This document shows, piece after piece, positions 21,073-37,197 of a stretch of 64,000 nucleotides of DNA (positions are counted from its first letter, which is position 1; each line of letters starts with the position of its first letter). A model generated the notes under the pieces. That model did no database searches and was not told where the DNA came from. It saw only the letters and a list, made by a program, of their open reading frames with translations. This DNA is from Burkholderiales bacterium. GTDB taxonomy: Bacteria; Pseudomonadota; Gammaproteobacteria; Burkholderiales; Burkholderiaceae_C. The DNA is taken from contig JAIXTA010000035.1 in assembly GCA_027484405.1 (NCBI GenBank), forward strand, positions 1 through 64,000, written 5' to 3'. The translations under genes were made by a program, and so were the position numbers.

Positions 21073-22956
21073 CTATTCCTCTAGCCGGTTGCGACCGGCT
21101 TCCTTGGCACGGTAGAGCGCGGCATCGGCTCGGGCTGCCAGCGGGCTGAACAGGTGTTCATGCTCGGCGCGTTCAGCCAGGCCCACGCTGATGGTCACAC
21201 GCAGTTCGGACGACAGATCCGGAAAGCGCAGGGCCTGCACCGCGGCGCGCATGCGCTCGCCCACGGCGCGGGCCACTTCGCGATCGGCGTCCGCGAGGAC
21301 GGCGGTGAACTCCTCGCCGCCCACACGACCGATCACGTCATTGCTGCGCATGGCCGAGGTGCAGGCCTGCGCCACGCGCCGCAGTACCAGGTCGCCGGCC
21401 TCGTGGCCGTACAGGTCATTGATGCGCTTGAAGTGGTCGATGTCGATGGCCAGTATGGACATCGCGGTTTTGTCGTCCCTGGCCTGATCCATGCGCAGCT
21501 GGGCCTGGGCCAGCAGGTTGCGGCGATTGGGCAGACGTGTGAGCTCGTCGGACAGGGCCAGGTCACGCATCCGGCGCGACAGGTGCACCTGCCGCCAGGT
21601 CATCACGCCCAGTGCGATGAACGCGACGCCGCCGACGGCGATCAGCAGCCACTGCAGGCGCTGGATGCTCGCCGCATCGTCCAGGGCCTGCTTGCGCAGC
21701 GCATTCTCGGCAAACAGGGCGGCGTTCTCCTCGTCCTTGCGGGCCGTGTCGAACTGCACCTGCAGGCGCGCCAGCTGCCGGGCCTTGAGACGATCGGCCA
21801 CCGAGCGCACGAACTCCGCCTGCATGGCACGTGCCTGCGCGGCACCACGCCAGTCACCGACAGCTTCCAGGGACAGGGCGCGCTGTTCGTGGATCTGCTC
21901 CAGAAAGGCGTGGTCGTCCTGTTGCTCGAAGTAGGCGCGGGCGCGGCTCAGGTCCACCAGCGCCTCGCGGGCGCGGCCCAGGAGGCGAAGAGCCTTGCCG
22001 CGCGTGGCCCGGGTCTGCGCGGCACGGTCGGCGTCGTCCAGGCGTTCGAACACGGCGAGCGCCTCGTCGAGCAGCGGCAGTGCGTCCTGCGCCCGATCCA
22101 TCTTGATCAACGTGGCGGCCCTGGCACGCTGGGTGTAGGCGTGCTCCAGCGACAGGTCGAGATGTGCCTCGATCTCCATGGTGCGGGCATAGAAGTCCAG
22201 TGCGCGCTCGTAGTCCTTCTTCTGCTCGTAGGTGGCGGCAATGTTGAACAGGCCGGTGGCCATGGTGCGCAGGCTGCCCTGCGCGCTGTCCGCGGTGAGC
22301 AGCTGCGCGTAGTAGCGGATGGCCTGGTCGTAGGCGGCCACATTCGGGTCCGCATACAGGTTGGCAATCGAATTGAGCACGAAGGGCAGCTTGTCGGTGC
22401 GCTTGAGCTCGGTGTTCAGGTCGTAGGCACGCTGCAGGTCGGCCAGGGCCGGCGCGTAGTCTGCGTCGAGATAGCGGGCTTCTCCGCGCAGGGCGAGCGT
22501 ATCGGCCAGCAGCGCCCGGTCCCGCAGGCGTTCGGCCTCGCTGAGCACCGCTTCATATTCACGGCGCGCCTGCCGCAGGTCCTGACCCATGGATAAGGCC
22601 CAGGCGCGGCACAGACGCAACTCGGCCCGGCGAGCGTCCCAGCCGGCAAACAGGGGCGAGGCCAGTGCGGCATCGGTGTCGCGGACGGTTTCGGGCAGGC
22701 GGTCGGTCGCCTGCAGCCAGCAGCGCTGCACCAGCGCGCGTCGGCGCAGGTCCGGGTCGGCGCCGGCCCCTTGCGCATCGAGCACGGCCAGCGCTTCGCG
22801 CGTGCGCACCATGGCGATGGCCGGGTCGCGCGGTTCAAGACGGGCGGCTTCGTCCAGCAGCTTGATCACGGCCGGGTGGGCGGCGGCTGGCGCAGCGTGC
22901 AGGCTCAGGGCACACAACAGCAGCGCGGGCACGCGCAGCAGGGGCTTGAAGATCAT
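21073..22956 (-). CDS. TPR-containing membrane diguanylate cyclase (GGDEF)
   Basis: N-terminal TPR region, TM, LALSDELTRLPNRRNLLAQAQ..., GRVGGEEFTAVLADADREVARAVGERMR. Confidence 0.92.
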   Translation of the reverse strand: MIFKPLLRVPALLLCALSLHAAPAAAHPAVIKLLDEAARLEPRDPAIAMVRTREALAVLDAQGAGADPDLRRRALVQRCWLQATDRLPETVRDTDAALASPLFAGWDARRAELRLCRAWALSMGQDLRQARREYEAVLSEAERLRDRALLADTLALRGEARYLDADYAPALADLQRAYDLNTELKRTDKLPFVLNSIANLYADPNVAAYDQAIRYYAQLLTADSAQGSLRTMATGLFNIAATYEQKKDYERALDFYARTMEIEAHLDLSLEHAYTQRARAATLIKMDRAQDALPLLDEALAVFERLDDADRAAQTRATRGKALRLLGRAREALVDLSRARAYFEQQDDHAFLEQIHEQRALSLEAVGDWRGAAQARAMQAEFVRSVADRLKARQLARLQVQFDTARKDEENAALFAENALRKQALDDAASIQRLQWLLIAVGGVAFIALGVMTWRQVHLSRRMRDLALSDELTRLPNRRNLLAQAQLRMDQARDDKTAMSILAIDIDHFKRINDLYGHEAGDLVLRRVAQACTSAMRSNDVIGRVGGEEFTAVLADADREVARAVGERMRAAVQALRFPDLSSELRVTISVGLAERAEHEHLFSPLAARADAALYRAKEAGRNRLEE

Positions 22957-24144: not shown

Positions 24145-24171
24145 TTAGCACTCTATGTCGGTGAGTGCTAA
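24145..24171. promoter_or_regulatory. CIRCE element (HrcA operator) upstream of rpoH
   Basis: TTAGCACTC-N9(tatgtcggt)-GAGTGCTAA, an exact match to the CIRCE consensus, 34 bp upstream of the rpoH start. Confidence 0.95.
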
Positions 24172-24359
24172 ATGTCCAGTCGAGTTCCCTGATCGGCGAT
24201 ATAGGCCGGGTTAATTCAGACGGACGCGCTGCGGGCCTCAACATATTGGGGAGGATTGCTCTAATCGCATCTTGCTGCGACCTGCGGGAGCTTCGAGACT
24301 TAGGGATTGCCCGGGCGACCGGGCGCCATGCCCTGTACGTTGGCACCGCCGGACCCTCG

Positions 24360-24998
24360 ATGACCGCCAAGACCCTATCCGCCGAAGATCTGTCCAGCGT
24401 GTTTGAACGCTGCACGCGCTCGGTCTCCCGCCGCATGGTGGGGCTGCCGGCCTTCGGGCCGCTGCTGCGGGAGGATCTGCTGGGCGATCCGCTCGTGCTT
24501 GCCACGCTGCCCGGAGAGCCGGGCCGGGCGATTGGGGATGCCGAGCGCTTCGTGATCGACAACGTCGCGCAGCAGCTGCATGACATGACCACGCGCGCCT
24601 GGACCGATGCGGTGGGCGCGGCCACGCCAGCCAGCGCACCCACGAGCCTGGCGCTGATCGAGGACAGCGCGCCGCTGGTCAGCCCGGAGGAGTGCCATCA
24701 GGTCGCCGCGGACATCGAGCGCATTTCCGGTGGCATGAGTCACAGCCTGGCGCGCATGTATGCCGACGTTCTGGCTGCCGCGAACTGCGTACCGCGCAAC
24801 GACACCGCGCATGTCTGTCCCTTCACGGCGCGCGCCATTCTGGGCGCGGTCGGCGTGGCTTGGGGGCGTGCCATGCCGCAGGGCGCGGGTCTGGCCATGG
24901 TGCTGCAGCACTGGAAGCCGTGGCTGGCACCACGCATCATCGATGCGCAGCGCCGGGTCGAGCAGCGGCTGGTGACTTGCCTGGCCTCTGTGATGTAG
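24360..24998 (+). CDS. hypothetical protein
   Basis: MTAKTLSAEDLSSVFERCTRSVSRRMVGLPAFGPLL...; good coding frame, no family recognised with confidence. Confidence 0.6.
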   Translation: MTAKTLSAEDLSSVFERCTRSVSRRMVGLPAFGPLLREDLLGDPLVLATLPGEPGRAIGDAERFVIDNVAQQLHDMTTRAWTDAVGAATPASAPTSLALIEDSAPLVSPEECHQVAADIERISGGMSHSLARMYADVLAAANCVPRNDTAHVCPFTARAILGAVGVAWGRAMPQGAGLAMVLQHWKPWLAPRIIDAQRRVEQRLVTCLASVM

Positions 24999-25186: not shown

Positions 25187-25996
25187 CTAGTGCAGCAGGC
25201 GGTGCTGGGCGGCGAGTGCACTGGCCACAGCGGTCCAGTGGGCCGAGAGCGCCTGCTGTACGACCTCAGGGCTGGGCCCGCCCGATTCGACCAGATCATG
25301 CGCAAGGGCTTCGAGCTGCGCAGCGTGCTGGCTGCCCGGTGCGTCGCCCAGCATGCGCAGCACCGTCTTCAGGCTGTGCGCCAGTCGCTCGATCTGCGCG
25401 GCATCGCCACGCTGCAGGGCGGCCTCTCCCTCGGCCGCGTCTGATGCAAATCGTGCCCGGGCCCCGCTGGCGAAGGCCGTGAACAGCGCCAGATTGCCGC
25501 CGAAGTGCTCGGCGACGGGGTCGGCCGCGGTGTCGGCCACGGGATTGGCCACGGCGTCGGTCTGCGCATCGGGCGCAGGGTGGGCGGCCGTGGTGCCGGC
25601 CGCGTCAAAGGGCTCATGCATCGCAGCTTCGATGCAGGCTTCGATCTCGGTGATCGACGCCGGCTTGCGCAGGGTGCGCCACACGCCGGCCTGTGCAATG
25701 GCCTGGGCCGTCTGCGGGCTCGCATCGGCGCTGAACACGCAGACGCGCAAGCCGGGGTGGCGCGCCGAGGCAGGGTGTGTGCGCAGCTGCTCGATCAACC
25801 AGAGACCATGTTCGCCAGGCAGCATGAGATCGGTCATCAGCAGATCGGGCCAGCGCTGATCGAGTGCACGCAGCGCGTCGCGCGCGGTGGCCACGCTGTG
25901 CAGCGTCACCGGCAGATCGGCGCAGACCATCTCAAGGAAGCGGCGCACGCCCGCGTCGTCTTCGACCAGCAGGATTTGCAGCGCAGGCGTCGTCAT
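25187..25996 (-). CDS. response regulator receiver - HPt domain protein
   Basis: REC: ILLVEDD, DLLMTDLMLPGEHG, RKP; C-terminal HPt with AHSLKTVLRMLG. Confidence 0.88.
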   Translation of the reverse strand: MTTPALQILLVEDDAGVRRFLEMVCADLPVTLHSVATARDALRALDQRWPDLLMTDLMLPGEHGLWLIEQLRTHPASARHPGLRVCVFSADASPQTAQAIAQAGVWRTLRKPASITEIEACIEAAMHEPFDAAGTTAAHPAPDAQTDAVANPVADTAADPVAEHFGGNLALFTAFASGARARFASDAAEGEAALQRGDAAQIERLAHSLKTVLRMLGDAPGSQHAAQLEALAHDLVESGGPSPEVVQQALSAHWTAVASALAAQHRLLH

Positions 25997-25999
25997 GGC

Positions 26000-26617
26000 T
26001 CAGGCGGCCGGCGCAAGCGCCTCTTGCAGGCGCTGCGGCAGTTCGGTGACGAGGCGATCCTTGCGCACGATGGGCACGCCCTTCAGGGCAAAGGCATAGC
26101 GCTCGATCTCGGTGTCGGACAGCGAGGTCACCACCACCAGCCGCGCCCGGGCCAGCGCCGGGTTGGCGCGCAGGCTCGCCACCAGGGCGGCGCCGTCAAT
26201 GCCCGGCAGCAGGATGTCGACGATCAGTACATCCGGGTCGATCCGTCCGTACATCACCAGCCCGGTCACGCCATCGCCCGCCACGGCGAGCTCGGCCTGC
26301 GGCAGCGCCTGCCGCACCACCAGCTGGATCAGATTCTGGAAATGTGCGGAATCTTCGATCAGCAGCACTCGCGGCGCCGTGGATGCCGCGCCGCGTCCGC
26401 CAGCCGTGGTTCCTCCACCTGCGCCGGGTGCGACGCCGCTCAACCAGCGCTCCACCGAAGCGCGCGAGATGCGGCGGTGCCCGCCAGGCGTGCGCCAGGC
26501 CTGCAGCTCGCCGCGATCCACCATGGCCTGCACCGACCGCACCGCCAGGCCCAGGCGCTGCGCCGCCTCCACCGTGGTCAGGACCTCCAGCTCATCAAGA
26601 TTCGGGTGTTCTGTCAT
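26000..26617 (-). CDS. MerR/excisionase-type HTH - receiver domain protein
   Basis: N-terminal LTTVEAAQRLGLAVRSVQAMVDRGELQAWRTPGGHRRISRASVERWL (HTH), C-terminal REC RVLLIEDSAHFQN...DVLIVDILLPGIDG...VTSLSDTE...VRKD. Confidence 0.9.
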   Translation of the reverse strand: MTEHPNLDELEVLTTVEAAQRLGLAVRSVQAMVDRGELQAWRTPGGHRRISRASVERWLSGVAPGAGGGTTAGGRGAASTAPRVLLIEDSAHFQNLIQLVVRQALPQAELAVAGDGVTGLVMYGRIDPDVLIVDILLPGIDGAALVASLRANPALARARLVVVTSLSDTEIERYAFALKGVPIVRKDRLVTELPQRLQEALAPAA

Positions 26618-26789
26618 GCGCTGATTTTGCCAGACTCGACCGGCGAATCACGAAATTCGACTCAACAAATTCGTACGGAGGGCGATAAATCAGCCACGAC
26701 TCGCCGATTAAATCAATTAATCAAATCAGAACCTTGCTTATTTGATAGATCCAGCTAAACTGGCATCATCAAACCGGCAAAATCGAATC

Positions 26790-27905
26790 ATGAAGACACT
26801 CACCACCCTGTTCGAGAACCTGGACTGTGGCCTGATCTGGGCGGACGCGGAGTTCACGATCCGCTACGTCAATGCCCGCGCGGCCGAGCAGACCGGCCTG
26901 ACCGTCGGCGAGAAGGTGCCCATGGGGCCGGTGCGCCGCGCGATGGATTCGGCCATGCGCGGCCACTCGGCCCTGCCCGTGAAGCTGCCCAGCGCCAGCG
27001 GTGACGGCCAGACCCTGACCATCACCACGCTGCCCGGTCTGGGCAAGCAGGACGCGATCGCGCTGGTCCGCAGTGACCAGCCCAGCTCAGCGCTGACGGC
27101 CGGCGGTGGCCTGGACGCGCTGCTCACGGTGATCCGCGCCGACCTGCTGGAGCCCTGGAACAAGCTCACGATGGAGTCGCAGCTCGCACGGCGCCTGCCG
27201 GGCGCCAGCGAGACGGTGCTGGGCCTGGTGAATCAGATCGAGGAGGTGGGCAGCACGCTGCAGAAGCTGCTCGATCTCGCGGGAGTGTGGAGCAGTTCGG
27301 CGCTGGTGGCCAACGACCGCGTCGACATGTGGGACATGCTGCGTACGGTCTGGCGTGCGGCCGAGCCGCTGGCGGCGAGCCGCAATCTCAAGGTGCGCTT
27401 CGCCCGCTTCCCGGCCGAGGCGGAACTTGCCGCCGTGTATGGCAGCGAGCCCTGGCTGCGCCGCGTGCTGATCGAGTGCCTCGAATCCGAGATCCGCAGC
27501 ATCCCGCGCGGTGCCACGATCGACATCGAATACCACCAGATGGGCGCGCGCGGCCTGATCGTGTTCCGCGACTCCGGCCTGTTCGCGCCGCCACGCAAGC
27601 AGGCCACCGCCATGGACCTGCTGGTGCGGCCGGTGCGCGTTGATGGCGACGGCGAAAAGCAGCTCAGTGCGCGCGACCTGATCGGCCTGCGTCTGTGCAA
27701 GTACATCGTCGAGCAGCACGGCGGCCAGCTGCGCGAGGAGCATGACGGCGCGCAGCGCAACTTCCTGATCGATCTGCCCACCGGTGCACCGGCGCAGACC
27801 GCCACCCCCGAACTCGACCTGCTGCAGGCGCAGCAGTACGCCAAGGATCTGGCGGCCCTCGTGGCTCGCCGCAAGCAGCGCCAGCAGGCCGCCACCGCGG
27901 CCTGA
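26790..27905 (+). CDS. PAS / degenerate histidine-kinase-like protein
   Basis: N-terminal PAS; DHp-like region IRADLLEPWNKL without His; HATPase-like region LIECLESEIRSIP...FRDSGLF...LIGLRLCKYIVEQHGG without canonical N and G2 motifs. Confidence 0.75.
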   Translation: MKTLTTLFENLDCGLIWADAEFTIRYVNARAAEQTGLTVGEKVPMGPVRRAMDSAMRGHSALPVKLPSASGDGQTLTITTLPGLGKQDAIALVRSDQPSSALTAGGGLDALLTVIRADLLEPWNKLTMESQLARRLPGASETVLGLVNQIEEVGSTLQKLLDLAGVWSSSALVANDRVDMWDMLRTVWRAAEPLAASRNLKVRFARFPAEAELAAVYGSEPWLRRVLIECLESEIRSIPRGATIDIEYHQMGARGLIVFRDSGLFAPPRKQATAMDLLVRPVRVDGDGEKQLSARDLIGLRLCKYIVEQHGGQLREEHDGAQRNFLIDLPTGAPAQTATPELDLLQAQQYAKDLAALVARRKQRQQAATAA

Positions 27906-27946
27906 CCACTCCTATCCGCCGCAGCCACAAGCCCACGGAGCACACC

Positions 27947-28318
27947 ATGAAGAAAGTCCTGATCGTTGAAGACCACGCGGACATCCGCAAGCTCATCTCG
28001 ATGACGCTCGAGTTCGAGGACTACGAGATTCACGAGGCGCCCGATGGCGTGACCGGTCTGCTGATGGCCCAGACCGTACGCCCCGATCTCATCGTGATGG
28101 ACGTGATGATGCCGGGCGAGCTCGACGGCCTGCAGGTCTGCAAGCACATCCGCAGCGACCCGAAGCTCAACCACATCCCCGTGGTGCTGCTCACGGCCCG
28201 TGGCCAGGCCAAGGACCGCGAGGCCGGCCTCGCAGCCGGTGCCACCCAGTACCTCGTCAAGCCCTTCAGCCCGCTGCAGCTGATCGAAACCATCGAACAA
28301 CTGCTGGTCAGCGCCTGA
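27947..28318 (+). CDS. single-domain response regulator (REC)
   Basis: KKVLIVEDHADIRKLISMTLEFEDYEIHEA...DLIVMDVMMPGELDG...LLTARGQ...YLVKPFSP. Confidence 0.94.
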   Translation: MKKVLIVEDHADIRKLISMTLEFEDYEIHEAPDGVTGLLMAQTVRPDLIVMDVMMPGELDGLQVCKHIRSDPKLNHIPVVLLTARGQAKDREAGLAAGATQYLVKPFSPLQLIETIEQLLVSA

Positions 28319-28325
28319 GCACTCC

Positions 28326-29072
28326 ATGACTCAGGGCCTTGCCGATGCCGACCTCGCCATGCAGCAGATGAGCCGCATGCTCGATGACCTGCGCGGCCTC
28401 TATGCACAGCGCAAGGCCGCGCTGCAGGAGGCCGAGCGGGCCCACCAGGACGCCATGCTCCGGCTGGCGCTTGCGGCCGAATTCCGCGACGACGAGACGG
28501 GCCGCCACCTGCTGACCATGGCCCTGTGCAGCGAGCAGTTTGCGCTCTGCCTGGGCTTGCCCAGGCGCTTTGCACGCAATCTGCGCCTGGCCGCACCGCT
28601 GCATGATGTGGGCAAGATCGGCATTCCCGACGCCATCCTCAAGAAGGCCGGCCCGCTGAATGCCGAAGAGCGCGCCGCAATGAACGAGCACACCACCAAG
28701 GGCGCGCATCTGCTGGCCGGCGCCACGAGCGACCTGATGAAGCTGGCCGCCGAGGTGGCGCTGACGCACCACGAACGCTGGGACGGCAGCGGGTACCCGA
28801 ATGGCCTGTCCGGCGAAGCCATTCCCTTGTCGGGCCGCATTGTCGCGGTGGTGGACTACTTCGATGCACTGACCATGGACCGCTGCTACCGCAAGGCGCT
28901 GAGCGTGCCCGAAGCCATGGCCATGCTGCGCGCCCAGGCCGGGCGCGGGCTGGATCCGGCGCTCTGCGCCTGCTTTGAACTGCATCTCGACCGCATCCTT
29001 GCCGTTCGCGCCTGGGTCGAGAAGAACGACCTCTCACTGGCTGACCTGATCGATCATGAACTCTGCAGCTGA
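28326..29072 (+). CDS. HD-GYP domain phosphohydrolase (putative c-di-GMP phosphodiesterase)
   Basis: LHDVGKIGIPDAILKK, NEHTTKGAHLL, HHERWDGSGYPNGLSGEAIPLSGRIVAVVDYFDALT. Confidence 0.93.
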   Translation: MTQGLADADLAMQQMSRMLDDLRGLYAQRKAALQEAERAHQDAMLRLALAAEFRDDETGRHLLTMALCSEQFALCLGLPRRFARNLRLAAPLHDVGKIGIPDAILKKAGPLNAEERAAMNEHTTKGAHLLAGATSDLMKLAAEVALTHHERWDGSGYPNGLSGEAIPLSGRIVAVVDYFDALTMDRCYRKALSVPEAMAMLRAQAGRGLDPALCACFELHLDRILAVRAWVEKNDLSLADLIDHELCS

Positions 29073-31272
29073 GATCCGTATCGCCATCGATCCGGAGGCC
29101 CTCTTCAAGCGCATTGCGCTGACCCTGGCGCTCCTTGGTCTGAGCGCCACGGCCGCCGGCATTCTGCTGGCCCCGGGGCCAGCTGCTGTCGCGGCCGCGG
29201 CAGCGCTGCTGCTTGCCACGGCCTACGCGCGCGGCCTGCTCGATCGTCATGCGCAGCAGCTCCAAGGCGTTGCCGCGCAGCTGGGCGCGGGCGAGGAAAC
29301 CCCGCCGGACAATCAAGCCGAGCCAGCCGTCCGGCTCGATGCCCAGGCTGCCGCCGTGGTGCAGCGCCTGCGCGAGCGGGAGGCGGAAGTGGAGTCGCTG
29401 CGCGGCCGCCTCGACACGCTGCTGGGCACCGTGCCCGATGCCGTGTTCGGCCTCGATGCCGAGATGCGCGTGGTCTTTGCCAACCCGGCAGTGACCGCGC
29501 TGTGCGGTCTGGCGCTGGATCGGGCCACGGGTGTCGAATTCGCCACGCTGTTTCCCGAATGCACGGCGACCTGGACGCAGACCCAGCTGGACGGCGCAGC
29601 GGTGGTGTCGAGCACCGGCATGCGGGTGGCCCGCAGCGAGACAGACGGGATCCGTGGCGGGGACACGCGCTTTCCGGTCGAAGTGTCGATTGCGCAGGGT
29701 CAGAGTGCGGGCGACATCCGGTATGTCTGCGTGGTGCGCGACCTGGCCGAGCGCCGCTGGGCCGAGGACCAGATGCGCCTGTTCAACCGCGCCCTCGACG
29801 CCACCACCAACGGTGTGCTGATTGCATCGATGACCTGGCCCGGTGCGCCCGTGGTGTATGCCAACCCGGCCTTCGAGTCGCTGACCGGCTACGAAAACGG
29901 CGAGTTCATCGGCATGAACTGCCGCGTGCTGCAGGGCACGGACACCGACCAGCCCGCGCTCGATACCCTGCGTGCCGCCATGAAGGCGGGGCGTTCGACG
30001 CAGGTCACCTTGCGCAACTATCGCAAGGACGGCACGCCCTTCGTCAACGAACTCAGCCTGTCTCCTGTCACGGACCACGGGGGTGCGCTCACGCACTACG
30101 TGGGCGTGCTCAATGACGTGACGCAACGCGAAGCGGCAAGGCGCGCACTGGCCGACCGCAGCGCACGCCTGGATGCCATCTTCAAGCTCAGCCCGGACGG
30201 CTTCGTGCTCTTTGACAGCACCGGCTGGCTGGCTTACGGCAATCCGGCCTTCTATGAAATGACCGGGTGGCTGCCCAAGCACACCATCGGTGTGCTCGAC
30301 CTGGACGCCTTCGAGCATCTGTTTGAAGAGCACTGCGATCCGGCGTTCCCGTATCAGCGGCTGATCAATGACGGGCAGCAGGACGACTCTCCTGCGCTGC
30401 TGCGCCTGGCCCGGCCCAGCCGCCGGGTGCTCAGCCGCACCGTGCGCCACACGCTGGCCGAATCCGGCGAGACCATCCTGTACTTCCGCGACGTCACGCG
30501 CGAGACCGAAGTCGACCGGATGAAGAGCGAATTCCTGACCACGGCGGCCCACGAGCTGCGCACGCCGATGGCCAGCATCTTCGGATTCAGCGAACTGCTC
30601 CTGCGTCGTGAAGTCACCGTGGAGCGGCGCCGCGAGATGGTGGAGACCATCCATCGGCAGGCCTCCTGGCTGATCCACATGCTCAATGAGCTGCTGGATC
30701 TGGCCCGCATCGAGGCACGCCAGGGCAAGGACCTGCTGTTCGAGCCGGTGCCGATCCGCGCGCTGATCGACGACGTCCTGGCGAGCCTGATGGTGCCCGG
30801 CGACCCGCGTCAGGTCCAGATCGTCGGAGAGATCTCGGCGCAGAGCGTCACGGTCGATGCCGAGAAGACCCGCCAGGCGCTGCTGAATGTGCTGTCCAAC
30901 GCCTACAAGTACTCGCCCGAGGGCGGAGCGATCGGGCTGTGGACCGTGTCCAGACAAGACGAGCAGGGGCGGACGCAGTGCGGCGTCGCGGTGCGTGACC
31001 ACGGCATCGGCATGACGCCCGATCAGGTCCGGCGCATTGGCGAGCGCTTCTACCGTGCCGACCCCTCTGGCAACGTGCCGGGCACGGGGCTGGGCATGGC
31101 ACTGGTGCGCGAAATCATGGGCCTGCAAGGCGGCACCATCGACATCGACAGCGAGTTCGGCCAGGGCACGACCATCACCCTGTGGTTCGCCGCGCAGTCT
31201 CATGCGGGCACCGGCCTCTTGGCGGATGCGCGCCAGGCTCAGACGGAGATGCAGCCATGCACGTCTTCCTGA
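29056..31272 (+). CDS. membrane multi-PAS sensor histidine kinase
   Basis: Two TM helices, PAS/PAC repeats (YANPAFESLTGYENGEFIGMNCRVLQGTDTD), DHp AAHELRTPMASIFGFSELL, HATPase NVLSNAYKYSPEGG...DHGIGM...GTGLGMALV. Confidence 0.95.
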   Translation: MNSAAEIRIAIDPEALFKRIALTLALLGLSATAAGILLAPGPAAVAAAAALLLATAYARGLLDRHAQQLQGVAAQLGAGEETPPDNQAEPAVRLDAQAAAVVQRLREREAEVESLRGRLDTLLGTVPDAVFGLDAEMRVVFANPAVTALCGLALDRATGVEFATLFPECTATWTQTQLDGAAVVSSTGMRVARSETDGIRGGDTRFPVEVSIAQGQSAGDIRYVCVVRDLAERRWAEDQMRLFNRALDATTNGVLIASMTWPGAPVVYANPAFESLTGYENGEFIGMNCRVLQGTDTDQPALDTLRAAMKAGRSTQVTLRNYRKDGTPFVNELSLSPVTDHGGALTHYVGVLNDVTQREAARRALADRSARLDAIFKLSPDGFVLFDSTGWLAYGNPAFYEMTGWLPKHTIGVLDLDAFEHLFEEHCDPAFPYQRLINDGQQDDSPALLRLARPSRRVLSRTVRHTLAESGETILYFRDVTRETEVDRMKSEFLTTAAHELRTPMASIFGFSELLLRREVTVERRREMVETIHRQASWLIHMLNELLDLARIEARQGKDLLFEPVPIRALIDDVLASLMVPGDPRQVQIVGEISAQSVTVDAEKTRQALLNVLSNAYKYSPEGGAIGLWTVSRQDEQGRTQCGVAVRDHGIGMTPDQVRRIGERFYRADPSGNVPGTGLGMALVREIMGLQGGTIDIDSEFGQGTTITLWFAAQSHAGTGLLADARQAQTEMQPCTSS

Positions 31273-31811
31273 TGGAATCGCTGGAAGGCTTTGTGACGGC
31301 AGCGCATGGGGACGCTTCATGGGCTGCAATCTGCAGGCGAGTCGATGCGCCGGAGGACGGCTTGCTTGCGCCAGGCACCGGCCTTCGTCCCTGCGCCTAT
31401 GCCCTCGTCCACGCCAGCGCACATGAACTGGGCATGAATCGCCAGGCGCTCCTGGAAGCCTGTGGGGCGTTCTGGCTGGAACGCCAGCTGGGGGCGTGGC
31501 CCACCAGCACACCCGCAGTCGGTCCGCCCTTGCCTGAGGATGCGCCGGCACTCGGCCGCCTCCAGACCGTGTATGCCCTGGCGCAGCATGTGCTCCGCCA
31601 GTTTGGCGCAGATCACTGCACGCTGCTGCCCACCGGGCACGGCGCCATCGAGGTCCGGCTGCCGGGTGCGGGGGCGCTCGTGCGCAAGTGGACGGTGGGC
31701 GTGTTCAAGGCGCTGAGTCGGGCGGCGGGTGTGGCCGCGGCCGTTCGTGAAGTGTGTGCCGAAGAGGCGCGCGGATTTGCCCTGCACCGCGTCGAGGTGT
31801 GTGCATGCTGA
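31257..31811 (+). CDS. H-NOX-like (heme NO-binding fold) protein, apparent loss of heme-ligand motifs
   Basis: MHVFLMESLEGFVTAAHGDASWAAIC...LVHASAHELGMNRQALLEACGAFWLERQLG... follows the H-NOX N-terminal pattern; 184 aa; overlaps an HNOBA-type kinase gene; expected LxxLH reads LGRLQ and YxSxR is absent. Confidence 0.6.
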   Translation: MHVFLMESLEGFVTAAHGDASWAAICRRVDAPEDGLLAPGTGLRPCAYALVHASAHELGMNRQALLEACGAFWLERQLGAWPTSTPAVGPPLPEDAPALGRLQTVYALAQHVLRQFGADHCTLLPTGHGAIEVRLPGAGALVRKWTVGVFKALSRAAGVAAAVREVCAEEARGFALHRVEVCAC

Positions 31812-33433
31812 CTGTAGAGACCGTGAGTGCTGCTGACGCGCCGGACACACCGGCGGCGAGACGGCTGCTTTCGCTCACGCCTGACGCGTTGCGTCGTGCG
31901 TTTCCGTTCCTGATCCTCCTGGACGCGGAGCTCCACATCCTCGAGATCGGCGCTTCGCTGGCCAAGGCCTTGCCGCTGGCGCGCGTGGGCCGCAGTCTGC
32001 ACGACGTGTTCCGGGTCACGCAGCCGGTCGCAAGTCGTGATCCGGCGCAATGGATTGCCGAGGCCGGGGCGCTGTGCACCCTGCGCCCCATCGTGACCCC
32101 GCAAATGATGCTGCGCGGCGCGGTTGAGCCGCTGGCCGATGGCAGCATCCTGCTGCTGGTCTCGCCCGTGTTTGCGTCGATGGATCATCTGAGTGCGCTG
32201 GGCCTGCGCTTCAGCGACTTCGCTCGGCACGACGCCGTGACCGACCTGCTGCTGATGGCGCGCAGCATGCAGATGGCGGCGCATGACACGCAGCGCATGG
32301 CGCGGCGGCTGCGCGAGCGCGGCGACCAGCTCAATGCCGTCCTGGACCTCAGCATCAACGGCGTGGGCTACTTCGGCCCGGATGGTGTGCTGCAGCTGAA
32401 CAACGCGCGATTTGCCACGCTGCTCGAGCTGGAAGCCGAACGCATGACCGGCCTGCGTCTGGCCATGCTGGACGATCATCTGGCGCATCTGCTTGCCGGT
32501 GCCGATCGCGGTCGCCTTGCCCTGACGGACTGGGCGCGTGCCGGCTCGCCGGACGAACCGCTTCACCTGTGTCTGGGTGAGGCAGACCCGCGCCATGTGT
32601 GCCTGCGCCTGCGCCACACGCACGAGGGCGGCACCATTGTCTACGTGCAGGACACCACGCGCGAGGCGCAGATCGATCGCATGAAGAGCGAGTTCCTGTC
32701 GACGGCGGCCCATGAGCTGCGAACGCCGATGGCCAGCATCTTCGGCTACACCGAGCTGCTCCTGTTCAAGAGCTTCCCGCCCGAGGAACAGCGCAGCTTC
32801 CTGCAGACCATCCACAACCAGACTGCACTGTTGGTGGACATGGTCAACGAGCTGCTTGACCTGGCGCGCATCGAAGCCGGGCGCGAGAAGGAGTTCCGGC
32901 TGGCGCCCACGCGCCTGGACGCCATCGTGTCGCGCGCCCAGCGGGCCATTGCCCCATCGGCGGCGCGGCATGAGCTGAGGATCTCGCTGGATCCGGGCGA
33001 TGCCATGCTCATGGTGGATGCGGCCAAGACGCATCGCGCATTGCTCAACGTGCTCTCCAATGCCGTGAAATACGCGCCGAATGGCGGTGTGATCGAAGTC
33101 ACGAGTTGTCGCGAGCAGCGGGGGGGCCGTGCCATGATCGGCGTACGCATCTCGGATCAGGGCATCGGTATGAATGCCCAGCAGCTTGAGCGCGTCTTCG
33201 AACGCTTCTACCGGGCGGACCCGAGCGGCGAGATCCCGGGGACCGGTCTGGGCATGAGTCTGGTCAAGGAGATCATGGAGCTGCAGCGCGGCGAAGTGAC
33301 CGTACAGAGCCAGCCCGGCGTGGGAACCTGTGTGACCCTGTGGTTCGCGGAGTTTGCCAACCCGGCCGCAGCTGAATCCCCCATCGGGGTATCCGAGGGC
33401 GTGATGCCCAGTGAAATTCAAAAGAGGTCTTGA
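31805..33433 (+). CDS. HNOBA (heme-NO-binding-associated)-PAS sensor histidine kinase
   Basis: FPFLILLDAELHILEIGASLAKALP...MLRGAVEPLADGSILLLVSPVFASMDHLSALGLRFSDFARHDAVTDLLLMARSMQ (HNOBA-like), PAS, DHp AAHELRTPMASIFGYTELL, HATPase. Confidence 0.8.
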   Translation: MLTVETVSAADAPDTPAARRLLSLTPDALRRAFPFLILLDAELHILEIGASLAKALPLARVGRSLHDVFRVTQPVASRDPAQWIAEAGALCTLRPIVTPQMMLRGAVEPLADGSILLLVSPVFASMDHLSALGLRFSDFARHDAVTDLLLMARSMQMAAHDTQRMARRLRERGDQLNAVLDLSINGVGYFGPDGVLQLNNARFATLLELEAERMTGLRLAMLDDHLAHLLAGADRGRLALTDWARAGSPDEPLHLCLGEADPRHVCLRLRHTHEGGTIVYVQDTTREAQIDRMKSEFLSTAAHELRTPMASIFGYTELLLFKSFPPEEQRSFLQTIHNQTALLVDMVNELLDLARIEAGREKEFRLAPTRLDAIVSRAQRAIAPSAARHELRISLDPGDAMLMVDAAKTHRALLNVLSNAVKYAPNGGVIEVTSCREQRGGRAMIGVRISDQGIGMNAQQLERVFERFYRADPSGEIPGTGLGMSLVKEIMELQRGEVTVQSQPGVGTCVTLWFAEFANPAAAESPIGVSEGVMPSEIQKRS

Positions 33434-33434
33434 A

Positions 33435-34262
33435 ATGTCCGCATGGAACCCACTGTCCGTCGTGCGTGCGATCGTGCGAAGCCCGGCTGCTGCGCTGCTC
33501 GCGGCCTTTGCACTGGCTGCGCCGGCTGCCCATGCCGGCCCGGTGCTCGACAGGATTCGCGCCTCCGGGGAGCTGCGCGTCTGCATCTGGCCGGACTACT
33601 ACGGCATCACCTTCCGCAATCCGAAGACGCAGCAGCTGGCCGGGATCGACATCGATCTGTCTGCCCAGTTTGCCCGCCAGCTCGGCGTGCGCCTGAGCTA
33701 TGTGGACTCGTCCTTCGTGAACCTGATCAATGATGTCACCACCGACCGCTGCGACATTGCCATGTTTGCCGTGGGCGTGCTGCCGCAGCGTGCAGAACGC
33801 TTGCGCTTCACGTCGCCCTACCTGGCCAGCGACATCTATGGTGTGACGACGCGCAGTTCGCGCGTCATCCGGCAATGGGCCGACATCGACCAGCCGGGGG
33901 TTCGCGTGGCAGTGCAGGCGGGGACCTTCATGGAGCCGGTCATGCGTGAGCGTCTCAAGCAGGCCACCATGGTCGTGATCCGGCCGCCGCAGACGCGGGA
34001 AGCCGAGCTGGAGGCCGGCCGTGTGGATGTCTTCATGACCGACTACCCCTACAGCCGGCGCCTGCTGGACAATGCGGACTGGGCCCGCCTCGTGACAGCA
34101 CCCGCGCCGTTCCATGTGCTGCCTTACGCCTACGCGGTCAAGCCCGGCGACGAGGAGTGGTTCCGGGAAGCCGAGGCCTTTGTCACGCGCATCAAGGCGG
34201 ATGGCACGCTTGCAGCAGCCGCAGCGCGGCACGGCTTGCGCGAGATTATGCTCAATCGTTGA
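33435..34262 (+). CDS. periplasmic amino-acid-type solute-binding protein, no transporter partner
   Basis: Signal peptide; VLDRIRASGELRVCIWPDYYGITFRNPKTQQLAGIDIDLSAQFARQLGVRLSYVDSSFVNLINDVTTDRCDIAMFAVGVLPQRAERLRFTSPYL. Confidence 0.9.
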   Translation: MSAWNPLSVVRAIVRSPAAALLAAFALAAPAAHAGPVLDRIRASGELRVCIWPDYYGITFRNPKTQQLAGIDIDLSAQFARQLGVRLSYVDSSFVNLINDVTTDRCDIAMFAVGVLPQRAERLRFTSPYLASDIYGVTTRSSRVIRQWADIDQPGVRVAVQAGTFMEPVMRERLKQATMVVIRPPQTREAELEAGRVDVFMTDYPYSRRLLDNADWARLVTAPAPFHVLPYAYAVKPGDEEWFREAEAFVTRIKADGTLAAAAARHGLREIMLNR

Positions 34263-34285
34263 GTGGCGAGTCGAAGCGTCGAGCG

Positions 34286-36799
34286 ATGAAGTCAGACCAG
34301 TCATTGCAGGCCGGCTACCGGTTGATCCGGTGGCTGGCTGCTGCCTTGGCGCTTGCGAGCGCGGTGGCGACAGCCGCTTTCGTCGCCTATGAGTATCGCG
34401 AGACCGAGCGCGTGGAGCTGGCCAAGGCGGGGCTGCTCGCGCGCGTGCTCGAGGACTACAGCTCGCGCCTGCTGGACAGCAGCAGCAGCTTGTTGGGCAG
34501 CGTGGCCGAGCAGATTCGGCTGCGCCCGGAGGCCATGTCCGATGCCAGCCTGCAGCAACTCATTGCAAGCCAGCGCCATCTTCGAAGCCTGTCGATCCTG
34601 GACGCGCAGGGACGCGTGCTGATGAGCTCCAACGCAGAGAACGTCGGGATTGCCGTGGATGCCGCCGTGTTCAAGTCCCTGGCGGAGGCCAACGGGCCTG
34701 CGCTCGGCGACCCCGTGACCGCGCGGGACCTCTTTGAGCTGGCGCAGGGGCGCGCAGCGAACTCGACTTCCGTCGTCACCTTGCTGCCCATGGCACTGCG
34801 CCTGCAGCCGAACCCCGAGTCGCCGGTCTTGCTTGCGGTGATCAATCCCGATGCCATTGCCAACTGGTTCACCCTGACGACACAGCCGGAGGGCTACGCG
34901 GCAAGTCTGGTGAGCTATGGACGCCGCAATCTGGTGTCGACCCTTGATCTGCCCGATGCCCGCTTGTCTGCGGCGGCCAGCACCCACCCCATCTTTGTCG
35001 CGATGCTGCCGGCGGTGGAGCACGCCGCCATCGAGGGTGCAGGGCTGAGCGGCACAGCGTCGATCCTCGGCTATCGGGCGCTGCGCCACTGGCCAGCGGT
35101 GGTGCTGGTCGAACGCACGCATCAAGCCACCATGGCACCCTGGTGGCGCACGGTGTGGCTGTCCCTGGCCGGGCTGCTGGCCGTGTGGATGCTTGTGGGA
35201 GTCATGGCCTGGTTTGCCCGCCGCGTGCTGCGGAGCAGTCAGTTCATGGCGGGCCGGCTGATGCAGGCCAGTGACCGCCTGGCCGAGCGCGAGCGCGACA
35301 TCCGGAACCTGTTCGAGGGGGTGCATGAGGTCTTGCTGCGCACGGACGCGACTGGTGCCATCCGCGTGATCAACAGTCACTGGACGACGCTGACCGGCAT
35401 CTCGACCTCGGACGTGATCGGTCAGCCGGTCTGGGTCCTGGTGGATCCGGCGCAGGCCGCACGCGTTCAGGAGCAGTTTGCGTCCCTGGGTGACAAGCCC
35501 TCGCGCCTGACCGTGAGCCTGCGCACCCAGGGCGACGACGCGCCGAAGGTTGACCTCATCCTGACGCGCGAGCAAGGACACGGGACCAGCACTGGCGGTG
35601 TGATCGGCTTTGCGGTGGACGTGACTGAGCGTGAGCGGGCGCGGCGTGCACTGCGCAAGCAGCTGGCCTTCAGCCGCTCGGTGCTGCAGGTCATCCCGAT
35701 CCCGGTCTGGGTGCAGAGCACCAAGGGGCTCACGCTGGAGGTCAATGCCGCGTGGGAGACCTTCCACGGCATCGGCGCGGAAGACATTCGCGGCCGCCCG
35801 CTGGACAACGTGCTCAGCGAAGGCATCGGCCAGGTGTTGCAGCGTGACGATGGCCGCATCATCCGTGGCGAGGTGAGCGAGCTGACCTTCACCGAACGCA
35901 TTCGCCGTGGCGACGGCCAGTGGCGCGAGGTGTCGATCATCAAGCGCGCGTTGACCGATGTGAATGGTCAGCCCGTGGGTGTCGTGGGCAGCGTGTTCGA
36001 CATCACCGACTTCCACCAGGCGCAGCAGGCCATGCAGGCCGCGCGAGACGCTGCCATTGCCTCTGAGAACGTGAAGAGCGGCTTCATTGCCAACGTCAGC
36101 CACGAGCTGCGCACGCCCCTGCAATCGATCCTCGGTTTCTCGGAGCTGGCCTTGCGTCGGCAGATGGGCCCGGAGCGCCTGAAGTCCACACTCGAGGACA
36201 TTCACGGCGCCGGGCTGCGCATGCTCACGCTGGTCAACGAGATTCTCGACATTTCCCGGCTCGAGAACTCGGACGAGGCGCTTGCACTCGGTCGTGCCGA
36301 CGTGTGCGAGGTGGTCCGAGAAGTCAGCCGGGAGATTTCCGCCATTGCCACCCAGAAGTTGGTGTCGCTCGAGGTCGAGCTGCCGCATGAGCCGATCTGG
36401 GCGGCGCTGCATCCTTTCCGGTTTGCACAGGTGTTGCGCAATGTCATGGCCAATGCCGTGCGCTTTTCGCCGGCGGGCTCGCAGGTGGAGGTGCAGCTGA
36501 GCCGGGCGGCCGGCGGCATTGCCGTCAAGATTCTCGATCGCGGGCCGGGTATTCCGCCCGACGAACTCGAGGCCATCTTCGAGGCCTTCACGCAGTCCAG
36601 CCTGACCAGCGATGGCGCCGGCGGGACGGGTCTGGGTCTGACGATCGCACGCAGCATCATGCGTGCCCATCACGGGCAGATCGCGGCGACGAACCGGGCT
36701 GAGGGCGGGGCCTGCTTTACCGTCTGGCTGCCTGATCCCGACGCGGAATCCAATCTGTCCTTTGTGGATTCCCTGCCGGGCGAGGCGCACGTGCTTTAA
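34286..36799 (+). CDS. membrane PAS sensor histidine kinase
   Basis: Two TM helices flanking an extracytoplasmic sensor region, two PAS domains, DHp NVSHELRTPLQSILGFSELALR, HATPase NVMANAVRFSPAG...DRGPGI...GTGLGLTIA. Confidence 0.93.
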   Translation: MKSDQSLQAGYRLIRWLAAALALASAVATAAFVAYEYRETERVELAKAGLLARVLEDYSSRLLDSSSSLLGSVAEQIRLRPEAMSDASLQQLIASQRHLRSLSILDAQGRVLMSSNAENVGIAVDAAVFKSLAEANGPALGDPVTARDLFELAQGRAANSTSVVTLLPMALRLQPNPESPVLLAVINPDAIANWFTLTTQPEGYAASLVSYGRRNLVSTLDLPDARLSAAASTHPIFVAMLPAVEHAAIEGAGLSGTASILGYRALRHWPAVVLVERTHQATMAPWWRTVWLSLAGLLAVWMLVGVMAWFARRVLRSSQFMAGRLMQASDRLAERERDIRNLFEGVHEVLLRTDATGAIRVINSHWTTLTGISTSDVIGQPVWVLVDPAQAARVQEQFASLGDKPSRLTVSLRTQGDDAPKVDLILTREQGHGTSTGGVIGFAVDVTERERARRALRKQLAFSRSVLQVIPIPVWVQSTKGLTLEVNAAWETFHGIGAEDIRGRPLDNVLSEGIGQVLQRDDGRIIRGEVSELTFTERIRRGDGQWREVSIIKRALTDVNGQPVGVVGSVFDITDFHQAQQAMQAARDAAIASENVKSGFIANVSHELRTPLQSILGFSELALRRQMGPERLKSTLEDIHGAGLRMLTLVNEILDISRLENSDEALALGRADVCEVVREVSREISAIATQKLVSLEVELPHEPIWAALHPFRFAQVLRNVMANAVRFSPAGSQVEVQLSRAAGGIAVKILDRGPGIPPDELEAIFEAFTQSSLTSDGAGGTGLGLTIARSIMRAHHGQIAATNRAEGGACFTVWLPDPDAESNLSFVDSLPGEAHVL

Positions 36800-37197
36800 G
36801 TCTTTGGTGTCCAGCGCGCAAGCACTGTGCGCAGATCGTGGATGGATGCCGGCTTCACCAGCACCTCGTTCATGCCTGCCTGCAGGCAGGCGTCTTCCGT
36901 GTCGAGGCCCGAATCACCGGTCAGACCGATCAGCGGCATGGCCACCCGGCCGGCGGCTGTCTCGCGCGCTCTGACGGCCGCCGCGGTCTCCGGGCCATTC
37001 AGGCCGGGCATGTTGAAGTCCAGGAAGGCGAGATCGAAGTCGCGGTCCGCGAGCAGGGCAAGCGCCTCTTCCCCGTCCGCAACAGCCTCCGCAGCCGCCC
37101 CCAGCGCGCTCAGCAGGCTGAGCATCACCTGGCGGTTGAATGCATTGTCTTCAACAACCAGAACGCGGGGCGGGACGGCGGGCGCGGTTTCGCTCAT
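36796..37197 (-). CDS. single-domain response regulator (REC)
   Basis: MSETAPAVPPRVLVVEDNAFNRQVMLSLLSALGAAAEAVADGEEALALLADRDFDLAFLDFNMPGLNG...GLTGDS...LVKPASI. Confidence 0.93.
   Translation of the reverse strand: MSETAPAVPPRVLVVEDNAFNRQVMLSLLSALGAAAEAVADGEEALALLADRDFDLAFLDFNMPGLNGPETAAAVRARETAAGRVAMPLIGLTGDSGLDTEDACLQAGMNEVLVKPASIHDLRTVLARWTPKT

Follow-up and report, generated by a model that had tools for sequence, protein, structure and literature searches.

A stretch of 64,000 nt (positions 1 to 64,000 of contig JAIXTA010000035.1 from a Burkholderiales bacterium; hereafter the window) contains an island of eleven signalling genes at 25187-37197. On balance, the island is probably a multi-input two-component module that sets the level of cyclic di-GMP (c-di-GMP) and transcription, in which a protein with the H-NOX fold gates an HNOBA-type histidine kinase without the usual haem. 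The genes, with start sites refined from the sequence, are listed below (HK, histidine kinase; REC, receiver; HPt, histidine phosphotransfer; DHp, dimerization and histidine phosphotransfer; CA, catalytic and ATP-binding).

25187-25996, minus strand: REC-HPt (Pfam Response_reg 3.9e-18, Hpt 2.5e-4)
26000-26617, minus strand, divergent from the operon: HTH-REC, an HTH_17 (excisionase/BldC-like)-REC transcription factor (Pfam HTH_17 9.5e-13, Response_reg 3.8e-10)
26618-26789: divergent promoter region, with AT-rich TGAT/ATCA repeats at 26706-26729
26790-27905, plus strand: pseudo-HK, with PAS, degenerate DHp, degenerate CA and a conserved C-terminal tail
27947-28318, plus strand: REC1, stand-alone receiver (Pfam Response_reg 2.2e-29)
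28326-29072, plus strand: HD-GYP protein, predicted c-di-GMP phosphodiesterase (Pfam HD_5 8.8e-40)
29056-31272, plus strand: PAS-HK, apparently membrane-anchored, phosphoacceptor His in AAHELRTP
31257-31811, plus strand: protein with the H-NOX fold that lacks the residues ligating haem; Tyr106 aligns with the proximal His
31805-33433, plus strand: HNOBA-PAS histidine kinase (HNOBA-HK; Pfam HNOBA 3.4e-17, HisKA, HATPase), catalytic His and N-box present
33435-34262, plus strand: family-3 solute-binding protein (SBP; Pfam SBP_bac_3 5.9e-22), apparent signal peptide, no permease alongside
34286-36799, plus strand: Cache/PAS-HK (Cache-HK), membrane histidine kinase (Pfam HisKA, HATPase, PAS) with two PAS domains
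36796-37197, minus strand, convergent: REC2, stand-alone receiver (Pfam Response_reg 6.2e-21)

All eleven genes named in the original prediction are present, and domain matches or motifs confirmed that histidine kinases, receivers, an HPt protein, a candidate c-di-GMP hydrolase and a DNA-binding output occur together here. The HPt domain scores 21.7 bits, slightly below the Pfam cut-off of 24.6, and its phosphoaccepting His is present ('AHSLK'). The Cache-like periplasmic region of Cache-HK gives a weak match to dCache_1 (0.0036). As for the proposed overlapping plus-strand operon, a tight run of eight genes with gaps of at most 41 bp was found, but overlaps are limited to four junctions (HD-GYP/PAS-HK, PAS-HK/H-NOX, H-NOX/HNOBA-HK and the convergent Cache-HK/REC2); elsewhere the genes are 1-41 bp apart. 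The ATG of HNOBA-HK overlaps the stop codon of the H-NOX gene (ATGCTGA).

The identity of the H-NOX-like protein rests on its fold and on profile comparison, because it misses the cut-off of Pfam HNOB (PF07700): it scores 16.5 bits against a required 25.5 (E 0.008), over the N-terminal half only, and was not matched in an HNOB scan of the window's genome at 1e-3. An AlphaFold2 model built from four sequences (pLDDT 82, pTM 0.82) showed the H-NOX order of helices and strands, and all 47 PDB matches returned by Foldseek at E<=1e-3 were H-NOX proteins or soluble guanylate cyclase (sGC). Comparison with a profile of 12 canonical relatives gave a probability of 98.6%. The earlier description of the protein as H-NOX-like therefore holds for the modelled fold and the profile, though not at the Pfam cut-off.

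The analysis covered samples of 399 genomes of the order and 301 of the family, and 24 loci (the window and 23 others) were examined; in these sets the window's genus has a single other genome, that of strain AAP99 (G141, locus L025). In a MAFFT alignment, the proximal haem His is replaced by Tyr106 in the window and by Tyr in AAP99, and is His in 12 of 12 relatives. The conserved Pro (kept in 12/12 relatives) and the haem-propionate motif YxSxR (YxS/TxR kept in 11/12) are likewise lost in both species. Both hinge glycines, G70 and G146 in L013 numbering, are invariant in all 14 sequences; the hinge was assigned by position, following PMC7108781. The other H-NOX proteins found in the 301 family genomes all have His in that region of the alignment, and the same search found no second H-NOX in the window's genome. 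As a check on the method, the Paracoccus H-NOX, aligned identically, showed Pro at the proximal position, as published (PMC8738867). Because the proximal His, the Pro and YxSxR are all lost, haem-based sensing of nitric oxide (NO) is unsupported. Judged by these residues, binding of NO to haem by the window protein is unlikely, and the protein probably senses something other than NO. One related-island H-NOX (L015 8129-8686, G171) has the proximal His and a partly lost YxSxR (C-S-A), and may be an intermediate. Residue 2 is His in the window, AAP99 and Paracoccus (L137 4001-4570) proteins and Tyr in the canonical relatives.

Could the protein still sense gases through haem, with the axial site taken by Tyr106 or a different residue, and the island be an NO/redox module? 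Tyr serves as a haem ligand in other proteins, both species have a Tyr where the His would align, and the H-NOX fold is retained. However, YxSxR and the conserved Pro disappeared along with the His, the C-terminal half is only 9-20% identical to haem-type relatives, and the register near Tyr106 is uncertain. We consider such a sensor quite unlikely.

Codon statistics bear on a different explanation, in which the H-NOX-like gene would be a relic in decay or would encode a ligand-free structural subunit retained only to fix HNOBA-HK in one state. Between the window and AAP99, the ratio of nonsynonymous to synonymous substitution rates (dN/dS) is 0.30 over the whole gene, which points to purifying selection; dS is above 1, so this and the following ratios are rough. 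Part of the reported kinase-contact surface (PMC7108781) lies in the N-terminal half. This half is 26-36% identical between the window and the relatives, and the window and AAP99 share 45% identity there (dN/dS 0.38). In the C-terminal half, on the haem side, identity to the relatives is only 11-19% for the window or 9-20% for AAP99, yet the two species are 63% identical to each other (dN/dS 0.23; permutation p 0.012). This is the reverse of the canonical proteins, in which the N-terminal half is the better conserved in 63 of 66 pairs. The whole protein is 16-26% identical to its relatives, whereas the HNOBA domain of the adjoining kinase (43-45% to the nearest) has diverged at an ordinary rate, as the relatives have among themselves. 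Decay or a purely structural role would fit the absence of a Pfam match above cut-off, the fact that among the five genes compared this one has the highest dN (0.39) and the lowest identity (55%), and the part-loss of YxSxR already seen in L015. It fits poorly with the low dN/dS, lowest in the altered half, with the better conservation of that half, and with an intact frame in AAP99 and in the window, where the gene overlaps its neighbours. Overall, a relic or structural subunit is rather unlikely; a ligand-free structural role could still apply, and gene decay as such is disfavoured by the codon statistics. Because the altered half has diverged from the relatives and is nevertheless 63% identical between the species, with dN/dS about 0.23, we argue for a new constraint on the haem-side half, which would have been re-specialised rather than left to decay.

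C121, H128, H177, C182 and C184 of the H-NOX-like protein are conserved in the window and AAP99. Tentatively, and with less confidence than we place in the module as a whole, we suggest that the H-NOX has been turned into a sensor of a new cue that it perceives without haem. The site for this cue would be newly formed in the former haem subdomain, where these five residues might make up a metal-binding or thiol-based centre. We further suggest, with the same reserve, that the protein controls the island via the HNOBA kinase and an undescribed pseudokinase-REC1 hub.

Several observations weigh against our interpretation of the island. The register near the lost His is uncertain: MAFFT places Tyr106 there and hhalign a Gly, though neither places a His. 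On sequence alone, haem could be bound via the Tyr or otherwise. Re-specialisation is argued from one species pair, the two genomes of the genus in the sets searched. The structure prediction for pseudo-HK was poor (three sequences, pLDDT 49) and does not establish its fold.

The original prediction centred the island on the H-NOX/HNOBA pair. Employing a profile of the pseudo-HK family, we found specific matches in the order sample (E below 1e-60; next best about 1e-24) in seven genomes, the window's own included; of the other six, five have an HNOBA-type H-NOX. In the family sample, pseudo-HK is present in 19 of 301 genomes; five of these also have an HNOBA-type H-NOX, and the other 14 carry the module without one. 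A cluster centred on H-NOX was therefore dropped, since the module is found mostly without it. The prediction had staked itself on the genes occurring together in other genomes, and they do: by hypergeometric test, co-occurrence of pseudo-HK with HNOBA-type H-NOX is far above chance, with p about 4e-10 for the order (window excluded) and about 1e-4 for the family; the latter rises to 0.007 once the window's genus is left out. A profile search of genomes with a four-row HNOBA alignment gave four loci; among plasmids, the HNOBA kinase matched generic kinases only.

AAP99 has the entire island apart from PAS-HK in synteny, with protein identities of 55-94% (REC-HPt 58%, HTH-REC 84%, REC1 94%, SBP 85%, Cache-HK 77%, REC2 67%). 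Across the order, all 24 loci have REC1 as the gene immediately after pseudo-HK, followed by HD-GYP and/or PAS-HK and/or H-NOX plus HNOBA-HK. The same pseudo-HK-REC1 order was seen in the 13 loci that came from the pseudo-HK profile alone, neighbours disregarded. HTH-REC, REC-HPt, HD-GYP, SBP and Cache-HK recur alongside this core: REC-HPt adjoins HTH-REC also in L013, L124, L126 and L132, and SBP adjoins Cache-HK in AAP99, L013 (where SBP is 73% identical), L124 and L132. Among the loci examined, a syntenic REC2 was recognised in AAP99 alone. One might instead suppose that two-component genes gathered here by chance without sharing a pathway, since such genes often cluster and since order and content vary between loci. 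Given the invariant pseudo-HK/REC1 adjacency, the recurrent companions and the co-occurrence in the order sample, we regard it as highly improbable.

The module is independent of its H-NOX part, because L124 and L132 hold REC-HPt, HTH-REC, HD-GYP, SBP, Cache-HK, pseudo-HK, REC1 and PAS-HK without an H-NOX. PAS-HK occupies the same slot in L015, L066 and L068 and in H-NOX-less loci. The family loci lacking PAS-HK directly downstream are L010, L012 and L013, and all three carry the H-NOX/HNOBA-HK pair in its place; the sensor kinases therefore look exchangeable. Further pseudo-HK/REC1/PAS-HK modules without H-NOX occur in L099 (G092) and L124-L136; the PAS-HK of L099 has a longer N-terminal part than the window copy, probably periplasmic.

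Within the core, REC1 is the most conserved gene of the island. In pseudo-HK, HisKA was not detected by Pfam and HATPase fell below cut-off. Among the aligned loci, L013 is the only one with His at the phosphoacceptor position, which the window and AAP99 fill with Ala; a minority of aligned family members have the N-box Asn, and the C-terminus bears a conserved P[TA]GAP and a QAQxYAxD tail. On these residues, pseudo-HK is a conserved, family-wide pseudokinase without a phosphoacceptor and not a kinase decaying in one genome, which bears out the earlier label of a degenerate PAS-HK. Its constant adjacency to REC1 and the high conservation of REC1 suggest that it may act as an adaptor for this receiver. 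Searches of the open-licence literature turned up nothing that describes the pseudo-HK/REC1 module. The undescribed system that had been proposed is real, conserved and apparently still undescribed. The pair forms a conserved two-component core, to which no name seems to have been given, and it is associated with c-di-GMP genes in many of the order's genomes.

HNOBA-HK and PAS-HK share sequence around and after the His (AAHELRTPMASIFG), and the HD-GYP protein has intact HD and GYP motifs (HDVGKIG, HHERWDGSGYP). HTH-REC matches the excise model TIGR01764 (1.3e-13, above its cut-off) and has a BldC-like winged helix-turn-helix. BldC binds 9-bp direct repeats (PMC5859096). In the divergent HTH-REC/pseudo-HK promoters of relatives (L062, L065, L132, L124 and L013), TGAT words stand in a 9-bp register, with 8 pairs against 0.3 expected and a maximum of 2 in 100 shuffles; the TGAT/ATCA repeats of the window are a degenerate form of these direct repeats. 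By analogy with the BldC binding mode (PMC5859096), HTH-REC may bind at the divergent promoter. In both the window and AAP99, TGGCAAAAT, which resembles an extended -10 element, or a closely similar sequence is found close to each of the two start codons.

We propose that exchangeable sensor kinases (the membrane PAS-HK, the H-NOX/HNOBA-HK pair and SBP/Cache-HK) would pass phosphate to shared receivers, with REC1 as hub, HTH-REC as a further receiver and REC-HPt as shuttle. PAS-HK and HNOBA-HK, with their closely similar DHp sequences, would feed the same receivers, and pseudo-HK would serve as a non-catalytic adaptor or docking partner of REC1. The outputs would be c-di-GMP hydrolysis by the HD-GYP protein and binding of HTH-REC at the divergent promoter. 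The H-NOX of this genus would no longer bind haem in the usual way; it may gate the translationally coupled HNOBA-HK via its distal subdomain and glycine hinge, with a non-NO cue acting on the re-specialised haem-side half. Cache-HK may detect a small molecule, perhaps an amino acid, that SBP presents to it.

The sGC alpha subunit has a haem-less H-NOX with a neighbouring HNOBA/PAS domain. The window H-NOX resembles it in both respects; sGC alpha differs in being eukaryotic, fused and part of a heterodimer with the haem-binding beta subunit, whereas the window's genome appears to lack any such H-NOX partner. The canonical H-NOX proteins of related islands are like Nostoc Alr2278 and sGC beta-1 (E 1e-74 and about 1e-46, respectively), and an H-NOX gene followed directly by HNOBA-HK recalls the beta-type arrangement. 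Unlike those proteins, the window copy lacks the haem His, Pro and YxSxR and is set in a larger pseudo-HK/REC1/HD-GYP/SBP module.

The HnoX-HnoK-HnoB-HnoD systems of Shewanella and Vibrio also pair H-NOX with an adjoining histidine kinase (here through overlapping genes) and with a c-di-GMP phosphodiesterase output (PMC8846402, PMC8738867). The island differs from them in having no haem ligand, an HNOBA-type kinase, an HD-GYP separate from the receiver, a BldC-like regulator, an added SBP/Cache kinase and a pseudo-HK. None of the eleven genes, to which the search was confined, encodes an EAL domain of the HnoB type. With the haem residues gone, the resemblance to the Shewanella NO network noted in the prediction is unsupported as a functional guide. 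In the Burkholderia NosP-NosK-NosR system, the logic of NO sensor, kinase and HD-GYP is similar, and the window HD-GYP matches the NosR model partly, below cut-off; there, however, the sensor is a FIST-domain protein and REC is fused to HD-GYP (PMC12570481). A FIST-domain (NosP-like) protein is encoded elsewhere in the window's genome (G000 contig C127:29360-29944, locus L104), so NO could be sensed by another route.

Group 5 (Paracoccus-type) H-NOX proteins lack the proximal His and mostly have Pro there (PMC8738867). The window protein shares with them the loss of this His, the His at residue 2 and the kept hinge glycines, but has Tyr instead of Pro and an HNOBA-HK instead of the GGDEF partner of Paracoccus; the Paracoccus protein is 20-21% identical to it, no more than are haem-type relatives. 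Haem-independent control of a kinase by H-NOX has been reported in Vibrio cholerae and Caulobacter (PMC7108781, PMC12329717). Those redox/zinc H-NOX proteins keep the His, and the window protein has Arg in place of the zinc-ligating Cys before the alpha-G glycine. With positions taken from PMC7108781, where the site consists of three Cys plus His/Gln, no Cys lies five residues before that glycine in the window or AAP99. This site is therefore absent, and a zinc-site reading of the Vibrio/Shewanella kind was dropped, as the Cys positions do not match. Both a His-less H-NOX and haem-independent kinase control are thus known already; here the partner, the residues and the setting differ. How His-less H-NOX proteins work is a question raised in the literature (PMC8738867). 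In the window, such a protein adjoins a kinase whose catalytic residues are intact. Relatives in which the haem residues are preserved occur in the same genomic context, so that the same partners can be compared directly with and without haem.

Near the island, a TPR-GGDEF diguanylate cyclase gene (window 21073-22956), found at the same place in AAP99, may encode a counterpart of the HD-GYP protein. A 277-aa open reading frame at 24165-24998, adjoining a sigma-70-family gene, has no Pfam match and is 71% identical in AAP99, a conserved gene of unknown function.

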